Source of the DNA: Isoptericola variabilis 225 | GTDB taxonomy: Bacteria > Actinomycetota > Actinomycetes > Actinomycetales > Cellulomonadaceae | Length of the DNA: 64,000 bases | Direction: 5' to 3' | NCBI RefSeq assembly: GCF_000215105.1 | Contig: NC_015588.1 | Coordinates: 248,001-312,000 of the forward strand | Shown here: positions 4,382 through 54,821 of the stretch, in pieces | Layout: the number at the start of each line of letters is the position of its first letter | Position numbering within the stretch: position 1 is the first letter of the stretch | The notes under the pieces: generated by a model | Told to the model about the DNA's origin: nothing | Database searches by the model: none | The model's input: only the letters and a program-made list of their open reading frames with translations | Made by a program: the position numbers and the translations under genes

Positions 4382-4433
4382 GCAGTTGTCAGGCCCACGC
4401 CCGGGTATACCGCGGCGTGGGCCTGACAACTGC
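4382..4433. repeat. Palindromic repeat, copy 1 (intergenic)
   Basis: A 52-bp near-perfect palindrome. The arms 4383-4401 (CAGTTGTCAGGCCCACGCC) and 4414-4432 are exact reverse complements, and the centre is GGTATACC at 4404-4411. The same architecture occurs at 20894-20945 and 21081-21130. This copy sits between the 65-residue gene and the SDR gene. There is no T run, so it is not a classical intrinsic terminator, although it could still form a strong RNA hairpin. Confidence 0.9.
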
Positions 4434-20630: not shown

Positions 20631-22109
20631 ATGAGCACGCAGCGCTTCCCCCTGCCCGACGTCGGCGAGGGGCTCACCGAGGCCGAGATCGTCGAGTGGC
20701 GCGTCGCCGAGGGCGACACCGTGACGGTCAACCAGGTCGTCGTCGAGATCGAGACGGCCAAGTCGCTCGTCGAGCTGCCCTCGCCCTGGGCCGGCACCGT
20801 GACCGCCCTGCTCGCCGAGGAGGGCACCACCGTCGCCGTCGGTACGCCGATCATCGAGATCGCCACGGGTTCGTCGCCCGCTCCCGCCTCTCCGGAGTTG
20901 TCAGGCTCAGGCGGGGGTATGGACCAGCCTGAGCCTGACAACTCCGCGGAGAAGGGGTCCGGGTCCGTGCTCGTGGGCTACGGGACGGGCGAGGGTGCCG
21001 CCGGCCGCCGGCGCCGCCGTCGTGCCACCGCGACCCCCGCTCCCACCCCCGCTCCCACCCCCGCTCCCACCCCCGCTCCCGAGTTGTCAGGCGCAGACCG
21101 CGGTATACCGCGGCGTGAGCCTGACAGCTCGCAGGATGCGGGCGGGCCGGCGATCGCCAAGGCCATGGCGAGCGTGCCGGTCAGCGAGGGCGCGACGTCG
21201 GGCACGCGCGTGCTCGCCAAGCCGCCGGTGCGCAAGCTCGCGAAGGACCTCGGCATCGACCTCGGCTCGGTGCACCCGACCGGGCCGGGCGGCATCGTGA
21301 CGCGCGAGGACGTCGTCGCGCGCGCCGAGGCGTCCAAGCCGCAGACGCTCGCGACCTACCCCGACGACGACCAGCCGTGGCTGTCGACCGGGACGGTCAG
21401 CCCCGACGGGCGCCAGACGCGCGTGCCGGTGAAGTCGGTGCGCAAGCGCACCGCCGAGGCGATGGTGGCGAGCGCGTTCACCGCGCCGCACGTCACCGTC
21501 TTCCACACGGTCGACGTCACGCGCACGATGCGGCTCGTCGAGCGGCTCAAGGCCGACCGCGACTTCGCCGACGTGCGCGTCACGCCGCTGCTGATCGCCG
21601 CCAAGGCGGTGCTGCTCGCGGTGCGCCGCCACCCCGAGATCAACGCGAGCTGGGACGACGCCGCGCAGGAGATCGTCTACAAGCACTACGTGAACCTGGG
21701 GATCGCGGCCGCGACGCCGCGGGGGCTCGTCGTGCCGAACATCAAGGACGCGCACGCGCTCGACCTGCTCGGCCTCGCGCGGGCGATCCAGGACCTCACG
21801 TCGACCGCGCGCGCCGGGCGCACGACCCCCGCCGCCATGTCCGACGGCACGTTCACCATCACCAACGTGGGCGTCTTCGGCATCGACACCGGCACGCCGA
21901 TCCTCAACCCGGGCGAGGCGGGCATCCTGGCGTTCGGCGCGATCCGCGAGCAGCCGTGGGTGCACAAGGGCAAGGTCAAGCCGCGCTGGGTCACGCAGCT
22001 CGCGCTGAGCTTCGACCACCGGCTGGTCGACGGCGCGCTCGGCGCGCGCTTCCTGTCCGACGTCGCGCGCGTGCTCGAGGACCCGGCGCGCGGGCTGGTC
22101 TGGGGCTGA
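20631..22109 (+). CDS. Dihydrolipoamide acyltransferase (E2)
   Basis: A 492-residue E2 with one lipoyl domain (residues 1-80; lipoyl-lysine K44 in EIETAKSLVELPSP), a long linker (about 81-190), a peripheral subunit-binding domain (about 192-228, RVLAKPPVRKLAKDLGIDL...GGIVTREDV), a second linker and the catalytic core (about 265-490) with the active-site DHRLVDG near residue 462. It passes the acyl group to CoA. The linker is odd: two palindromic repeats (20894-20945 and 21081-21130) are translated in the same phase as PELSG...EPDNS and PELSG...EPDSS, with an Arg-rich patch and four PTPA units between them. No E3 gene follows, so dihydrolipoamide dehydrogenase must come from elsewhere. Confidence 0.93.
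   Translation: MSTQRFPLPDVGEGLTEAEIVEWRVAEGDTVTVNQVVVEIETAKSLVELPSPWAGTVTALLAEEGTTVAVGTPIIEIATGSSPAPASPELSGSGGGMDQPEPDNSAEKGSGSVLVGYGTGEGAAGRRRRRRATATPAPTPAPTPAPTPAPELSGADRGIPRREPDSSQDAGGPAIAKAMASVPVSEGATSGTRVLAKPPVRKLAKDLGIDLGSVHPTGPGGIVTREDVVARAEASKPQTLATYPDDDQPWLSTGTVSPDGRQTRVPVKSVRKRTAEAMVASAFTAPHVTVFHTVDVTRTMRLVERLKADRDFADVRVTPLLIAAKAVLLAVRRHPEINASWDDAAQEIVYKHYVNLGIAAATPRGLVVPNIKDAHALDLLGLARAIQDLTSTARAGRTTPAAMSDGTFTITNVGVFGIDTGTPILNPGEAGILAFGAIREQPWVHKGKVKPRWVTQLALSFDHRLVDGALGARFLSDVARVLEDPARGLVWG
20894..20945. repeat. Palindromic repeat, copy 2 (inside E2 coding sequence)
   Basis: Arms 20894-20912 (GGAGTTGTCAGGCTCAGGC) and 20927-20945 are exact reverse complements over 19 bp, with a 14-base centre holding GGTAT. 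Outer sequence, half-length and central GGTAT match copies 1 and 3. It is translated as PELSGSGGGMDQPEPDNS in the linker between the lipoyl and subunit-binding domains, without breaking the frame. Confidence 0.9.
21034..21080 (+). repeat. 12-bp tandem repeat encoding PTPA units
   Basis: CCCCCGCTCCCA is repeated four times (the last unit one base short), encoding (P-A-P-T) in the E2 linker. Such Pro/Ala-rich segments make flexible but extended linkers between E2 domains. Slippage would change linker length in steps of four residues without a frameshift. It directly abuts palindromic repeat copy 3. Confidence 0.9.
21081..21130. repeat. Palindromic repeat, copy 3 (inside E2 coding sequence)
   Basis: A 50-bp palindrome beginning GAGTTGTCAGGC and ending GCCTGACAGCTC, centred on the perfect 16-bp CCGCGGTATACCGCGG at 21098-21113. 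It is translated as ELSGADRGIPRREPDSS, the same phase as copy 2. Only a few arm bases are mismatched (21093, 21096-21097, 21114-21115, 21118 region and A/G at 21126). Confidence 0.88.
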
Positions 22110-54750: not shown

Positions 54751-54821
54751 AGCGGGTGACGGGAATCGAACCCGCGCTGTCAGCTTGGGAAGCTGAAGTT
54801 CTACCATTGAACTACACCCGC
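54751..54821 (-). tRNA. tRNA-Gly (anticodon CCC)
   Basis: On the minus strand a 71-base cloverleaf is complete. The acceptor GCGGGTG pairs with CACCCGC, the D arm is GTTCAATGGTAGAAC, the anticodon stem TCAGC/GCTGA encloses TTCCCAA (anticodon CCC, reading GGG), and the T arm is CGGGTTCGATTCCCG. The discriminator is U, and CCA is not encoded. The gene stands alone, opposite to dcd, with a terminator just downstream. Confidence 0.95.

Follow-up and report, generated by a model that had tools for sequence, protein, structure and literature searches.

A dispersed family of fixed-length palindromes in Isoptericola, read in one frame within proteins, with a candidate nuclease

How does the same palindrome come to lie twice, in the same codon phase, within the linker of one enzyme? 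The question is raised by a gene of Isoptericola variabilis 225, located in the 64,000-nucleotide stretch analysed here (the window; contig NC_015588.1, positions 248,001 to 312,000, forward strand). The gene (20631..22109, + strand) encodes the E2 acyltransferase of a 2-oxoacid dehydrogenase, a protein of 492 amino acids with Pfam matches to the lipoyl (PF00364, residues 6-77), E3-binding (PF02817, 194-228) and catalytic (PF00198, 261-487) domains. The best explanation of our data is that its palindromes belong to a dispersed family of coding palindromes of fixed length (50 bp; core TGTCAG-N30-CTGACA) in Isoptericola and related genera.

Both linker copies are read in frame 0 of the + strand: copy 1 (20895..20944) is translated as ELSGSGGGMDQPEPDNS and copy 2 (21081..21130), starting 186 bp further on, as ELSGADRGIPRREPDSS. 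The third copy (4383..4432, no strand assigned) is intergenic, and its CAG/CTG outer ends are symmetric. Each measures 50 bp when three outer bases per side are included. These positions bear out a sequence-only reading of the window, which had also credited the repeats with common arms and a common centre. The common length held; the right arm of copy 2 has one base changed (GCCTGACAGC), and copy 1 lacks the proposed centre GGTATACC, carrying GGTATGGACC instead. The folding z scores of the window copies against 200 shuffles were -7.4, -8.5 and -11.4, and a pattern with both 10-base arms gave two matches where shuffles predicted 0.00. Two other linker features had been called oddities. The Arg patch (LVGYGT...RRRRR) is no oddity, since the genus and many other relatives have it in their E2 linkers, and Ala/Pro repeats like the PTPA repeats are present in many relatives' E2 linkers. 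A recurrent part of the linker, VLVGYGTGEGAAGRRRRRR (20969..21025, + strand, coordinates set by eye), lies between the elements and outside both, and is a motif of relatives' linkers as well. The linker itself is not conserved among relatives, which favours a mobile repeat. Among 17 E2 linkers of the genus (18 genomes, without G001) elements occur in two, that of I. variabilis and that of I. halalbus (G014), where both the sequence and the second position are different. The exact N30 pattern was found in the linker at four of 80 named E2 loci.

Further copies, predicted by the mobile-palindrome interpretation, are numerous in the I. variabilis genome (G000), a single contig of 3,307,740 bases whose genus is borne out by named E2 relatives. 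A strict pattern found 24 places, with 33 matches over both strands, a pattern allowing three mismatches 47, and a covariance model 48. An arms-only search with gaps of 16-46 bases found 101 places (control 1), and among the matches listed 88 of 90 had exactly 30 bases between the arms; two 51-bp matches of this search were rejected as elements, being 23S rRNA genes. The exact pattern TGTCAG-N30-CTGACA has 98 copies (control 0). On the shuffle and control searches together with these counts we rejected a chance origin, and the mobile-palindrome interpretation is supported. Beyond it, we observed a second subfamily, a single reading frame, a gap at the terminus, preferred pair spacing and nuclease-like genes framed by elements.

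The copies fall into two subfamilies of about equal size, assigned by a simple rule on the core: A, the type in the window, and B, with consensus core TGTCAGAAAGCTGGTGGGCCCGGGCCCACCAGGCTTCTGACA. Both share the 50-bp length with a fixed 42-bp core. Positions were established for 97 copies, 48 of A and 49 of B; as 93 of these have exact arms, five of the 98 exact copies are unplaced. The arms of A covary to a modest extent, yet beyond what any of 500 shuffles reached on five measures (z 4.6), and at the variable column pair 16/35 only 25 of 48 copies match, as expected by chance. The arms of B do not covary (z 0.5). Covariation present in A and absent in B led us to reject pure selection for an RNA hairpin. 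The linker of a second E2 paralogue (G000 C1:557453-558928; L197:1954-3429) contains two B elements; the two E2 genes observed in this genome have therefore been hit by different subfamilies.

About a third of the copies (33 of 97) lie within genes, spread over 23 genes called by our own script in stretches mostly picked for containing elements, and all are open. Every one of the 33 is read in frame 0 (NTG TCA GNN), yielding peptides close to ELSGPGxGIPxxEPDNS for A and xVSExxWAxAHQxSDTx for B. The same frame is used by all 32 in-gene copies at relatives' loci; the resulting 65 of 65 include orthologous sites and are partly non-independent. A match in another frame, at L252, from one of the distant genomes in the phylum survey described below, was discarded as a background hit. 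Of the other two frames, frame 2 is closed by a stop in every one of the 97 copies. Frame 1 is open in 92 of them, encodes Cys in all 97 and, in A, is hydrophobic (grand average of hydropathy 0.25, vs -1.24 for frame 0). The seven pairs of in-gene neighbours less than 400 bp apart are all spaced by multiples of three (54, 63, 63, 141, 186, 186 and 381).

A Pfam scan of the 23 hosts gave a family above the cut-off for 21, some of the names being read from domains. Besides the two E2 paralogues, the hosts include an HrpA-type helicase, an acyl-CoA carboxylase alpha-type protein, HemD, MenE-like and MenD-like proteins, a formamidopyrimidine-glycosylase relative, MoeA, a NuoG-like protein, SMC and a P-type metal ATPase, among others. 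In SMC an in-frame B element lies in the region of the hinge domain (G000 C1:1292423; L206:1920). In-gene copies occupy protein loops, at which relatives have a different sequence or their own species' variant. With 89.7% of the stretches coding, genes are strongly avoided (P 1.6e-39), though by no means free of elements. Agreement with the interior consensus is hardly lower inside genes, at 0.78 in genes vs 0.83 between genes for A, and 0.78 vs 0.81 for B.

The other 64 copies are intergenic and lie close to gene 3' ends: 50 of 68 sides facing a gene 3' end are within 24 bp of the element, vs 13 of 60 sides facing a start codon. Upstream flanks are rich in C and downstream flanks in G, and no TTT was found within 12 nucleotides downstream of any of the 64 on the strand read. 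Elements also form doublets, spaced 60-63 bp in G000 (14 pairs), 60-62 bp in the relative G013 (11 pairs) and 62 bp in a second relative, G027 (four pairs). As direct repeats, the partners are more alike than random halves in G000 and G027 and hardly so in G013. A further recurrent spacing of 281-287 bp was seen in three pairs of G013 (C1, near 1449389, 3509359 and 3601116).

On the chromosome scale, the largest element-free gap covers the point opposite the replication origin (oriC) in all three of these genomes, which represent two genera. It spans fractions 0.401-0.600 in G000, 0.353-0.537 in G013 and 0.286-0.672 in G027. The origin was placed at position 0 in G000 by dnaA, dnaN, recF and gyrB, whose proteins were identified by reading, and by dnaA at 327 kb in G013 and at the contig end in G027. 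With clusters more than 2 kb apart taken as independent, and with synteny shared between G000 and G013, an equally large gap over that point arose by chance in 0 of 20,000 trials for G000 and with probabilities of 0.0136 for G013 and 0.0065 for G027. On average, elements lie only slightly closer to oriC than random placement would give (P 0.037, 0.051 and 0.038; B alone 0.28), so that the terminus effect is a gap and not a gradient.

Among 58 genomes, the A model found copies in 18 including I. variabilis, with a patchy distribution in the genus (nine of the 17 others). Interiors vary by genome, being close to RCYSNGCGCG..GTATAC in G013, of a GGGTCAC type in G014 and GCGCTCGCCG in G027; Actinotalea and Cellulosimicrobium have further types. 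We compared the loops at 17 of the 33 in-gene sites (11 A, 6 B) with seven relatives, adding G013 at one site, giving 108 site-by-genome pairs, with some genes absent in some relatives. In 14 of the 108 the relative carries an element in the same loop with a different interior, the arms being exact in 12, changed by one base in one and by two in another; every one of the 14 falls on an A site, for which 68 pairs were compared. In the carboxylase loop G000, G002, G007, G013 and G014 each have a variant of their own, and G003 and G009 have no element there. Apparent decayed relics are present in the MenE-like gene of G014 (ELPGSGRRAPGPEPDDA) and, in G006, at B site 1146325 (DRSDAPRADARPASDAP). 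Given the loops shared with lineage variants and the relics, at least some insertions look old, with a sequence that turns over by lineage; reinsertion at hot spots is a possible alternative. In a phylum survey of 396 genomes, in which I. variabilis was the only member of its family, the exact N30 pattern matched in 22, with 98 copies in I. variabilis, 15 in G280, four in G143 and one or two in the rest. The four of G143, a distant actinobacterium, are near-perfect palindromes (TGTCAGGCACTTAACCGAA...) of the same 42-bp length and arms (C1, C5, C7 and C9; L272), and the 15 of distant genome G280 (L270 and other places) have a different look (TGTCAGC..GCTGACA).

A candidate for the enzyme behind this spread comes from genes flanked by elements. 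Copies stand on both sides of four of 376 genes examined in G000, and two of the four are the only homologues found here of a family combining an AbiEi-like DNA-binding part with a PD-(D/E)XK-like part. One paralogue is framed by A copies and the other by B, and in a relative whose copies have an A-type centre the nuclease-like protein is of the A type too (79% vs 57% identity). The N-terminal half of the framed protein has the AbiEi antitoxin fold. The whole-protein fold search barely covered residues past about 202, so the C-terminal part was predicted alone; the model may resemble the PD-(D/E)XK fold. In G013 the spacing of elements 3600040 and 3601116 would fit a gene of the same size as the nuclease-like gene.

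We also looked for carriage by phages or plasmids. In viral_contigs the A pattern matched seven contigs, of which the six viewed were weakly palindromic (22-32 of 50) and were taken as chance, and the B pattern had no match; phage and plasmid records had no match to the element either. Carriage of the element by phage or plasmid was rejected on these searches. For the nuclease-like protein, the best 120 of 621 database matches were considered: viral_contigs held no relative by the two patterns used, plasmids gave no match, and one unverified phage record, in which the element is absent, gave a 33% match. A DUF222/HNH (13E12-type) protein was considered as a mobiliser too, and a literature search on it returned nothing of use.

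Known repeats resemble these elements in part; the statements cited here and below follow the accessible sections of their sources. The palindromic elements of Rickettsia (RPE) and Wolbachia (WPE) lie in frame in conserved genes, in solvent-exposed parts, as well as between genes, and orthologous genes may carry different element groups at or near one place (PMC3767692, PMC2229807); the same puzzle of old insertion and turnover exists in Rickettsia (PMC3767692). The likeness to RPE drawn by the sequence-only reading is apt for how the elements work, in frame within genes and between them, and fails as membership: the present elements have 50 bp of one exact length vs about 100-150 bp, live in free-living GC-rich actinobacteria, and show the single frame, doublets, terminus gap and candidate nuclease, a distinction drawn on length and features. 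REP/REPIN-RAYT systems (REPtrons) have species-specific palindromes, doublets of preferred spacing and, for each repeat class, one gene, usually single-copy, situated amid the repeats (PMC3116915, PMC8266576), much as the Isoptericola doublets and enzyme-like gene do. In Pseudomonas fluorescens SBW25, however, 14 of 1,067 repeat occurrences overlap genes (PMC3116915), compared with one third here, and the flanking gene here encodes an AbiEi-like/PD-(D/E)XK-like protein. The RAYT Y1 (HUH) transposase family PF01797 was found in none of 33 genomes at E 0.001, the control matching in five of 14 named genomes, and we rejected RAYT as the mobiliser. Having the wrong length for RPE and no Y1 transposase for a REPtron, the elements are members of neither, although these two are the nearest analogues. 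Like miniature inverted-repeat transposable elements they are short, non-autonomous and numerous, but no target-site duplication and no parent element with these ends were seen. AbiEi antitoxins match the framed protein in its N-terminal half but lack its additional nuclease-like C-terminal domain. Our literature search, covering few subscription journals, returned no title on such elements in actinobacteria. The fixed-length copies read in one frame and the two framed sister genes suggest a mode of repeat spread through genomes and proteins that has not been described before.

We propose, as the account that seems to us somewhat probable, a nuclease-linked palindrome spread and homogenised by cutting and copying, which would behave in coding sequence like RPE and be organised like a REPtron, with the nuclease, on our best reading, standing in the place of the RAYT transposase. 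Each subfamily would have an AbiEi-like/PD-(D/E)XK-like protein of its own to recognise it: the AbiEi-like half would read the TGTCAG half-sites, and the nuclease half would cut or nick the palindrome, possibly once it is extruded. Repair off another copy would then spread and homogenise the elements, a copy-and-convert process of a homing-site or REPtron kind. Insertions that break genes would be lost, and those in loops would survive only in the frame that yields a hydrophilic, Cys-free linker peptide. A cut site near the terminus would usually have no replicated sister for repair, and the lack of elements in that region would follow from this.

Several observations count against this proposal. 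Intact elements are present in none of the 40 relative pairs at B sites of G000, and no relative compared offers a clean empty site: the net length difference at element-less loops varies (e.g. +9 to +22 amino acids) instead of being 17, and some relatives have a longer unrelated loop there. No flank repeat of 3-9 bases rose clearly above shuffles as a target-site duplication. The frame rule is not fully explained, since in B the other open frame, Cys aside, is barely worse (the hydropathy contrast is small) and frame 0 itself is interrupted by a stop in five of the 49 copies of B. As for the enzyme, the Foldseek matches of the nuclease half are non-significant (best E 0.087) with modest Z, the other two framed genes are unrelated to the nuclease-like family, the framing comes from one genome, where an inspection of clustered copies brought it to attention, and AbiEi-type proteins may be mere repressors of their own promoters.

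In a rival account, unlikely in our view, selfish RPE-like palindromes are mobilised by another enzyme; the nuclease-like genes would then have no part in the spread, or would be AbiEi-type genes whose autoregulation uses elements that landed next to them by chance. All the descriptive results stand without the nuclease, two further genes are framed as well, and the RPE literature, in its accessible sections, names no mobiliser (PMC3767692, PMC2229807). Such an account leaves to coincidence the framing of both family members, with a chance of the order of 1e-6 (about five framed of an assumed 3000 or so genes, post hoc), and the match of subfamily to paralogue. The terminus gap itself recalls Noc and SlmA, whose dispersed palindromic sites (about 70 and 24-52) are likewise uneven, being scarce or absent around the terminus (PMC4726725). 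If the palindromes were host sites, occupied as doublets by a protein of this kind that organises the chromosome or times division, they would be absent there for that reason, and the fixed length, the 60-63 bp doublets and the independently varying half-sites of B, as for a protein target of two half-sites, would fit. We consider this improbable: same-genus relatives have few or none (I. variabilis and nine of 17 with any A-model match), the interiors in the same loops differ between species, and one third of the copies lie in genes, in frame within proteins, which is odd for such sites; Noc sites, moreover, measure about 14 bp vs 50.

Hairpins kept for RNA structure, as transcription terminators or mRNA ends, some later overrun by reading frames, would account for the crowding at gene 3' ends, the strong predicted hairpins and the covariation in A. 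Neither conserved arms nor one exact length is needed for a terminator, however, and the missing T-runs, the uncorrelated B arms, the lack of an Rfam match at the element and the presence of elements in loops of conserved proteins make this explanation highly improbable. Two further features may be recorded: an IS110-type transposase gene about 290 bp from a B element (L193:945-2000; G000 C1:200444-201499), and a tRNA gene at 54751-54821 of the window, its sole Rfam match at the gathering threshold.

Palindromes that code for protein are known mainly from obligate intracellular Rickettsiales, where the available accounts name no mobilising enzyme (PMC3767692, PMC2229807). The same behaviour is now seen in bacteria that live freely and can be cultured, and a concrete candidate enzyme is at hand; the Isoptericola case adds strict length and frame, lineage-specific turnover in the same loops and a chromosome-scale exclusion zone. 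With a culturable host, a candidate enzyme and such strict features, the entry and spread of coding repeats in proteins become testable at the bench. If the proposed cutting and copying is correct, it would be a nuclease-based counterpart to REP/RAYT. Tentatively, and with more doubt, the elements may represent a new class of mobile repeat, cut and copied by a cognate nuclease, whose sites live only where a replicated sister is at hand and the frame gives a harmless linker; if so, loops of 17 residues would have been written into housekeeping proteins across a bacterial family.
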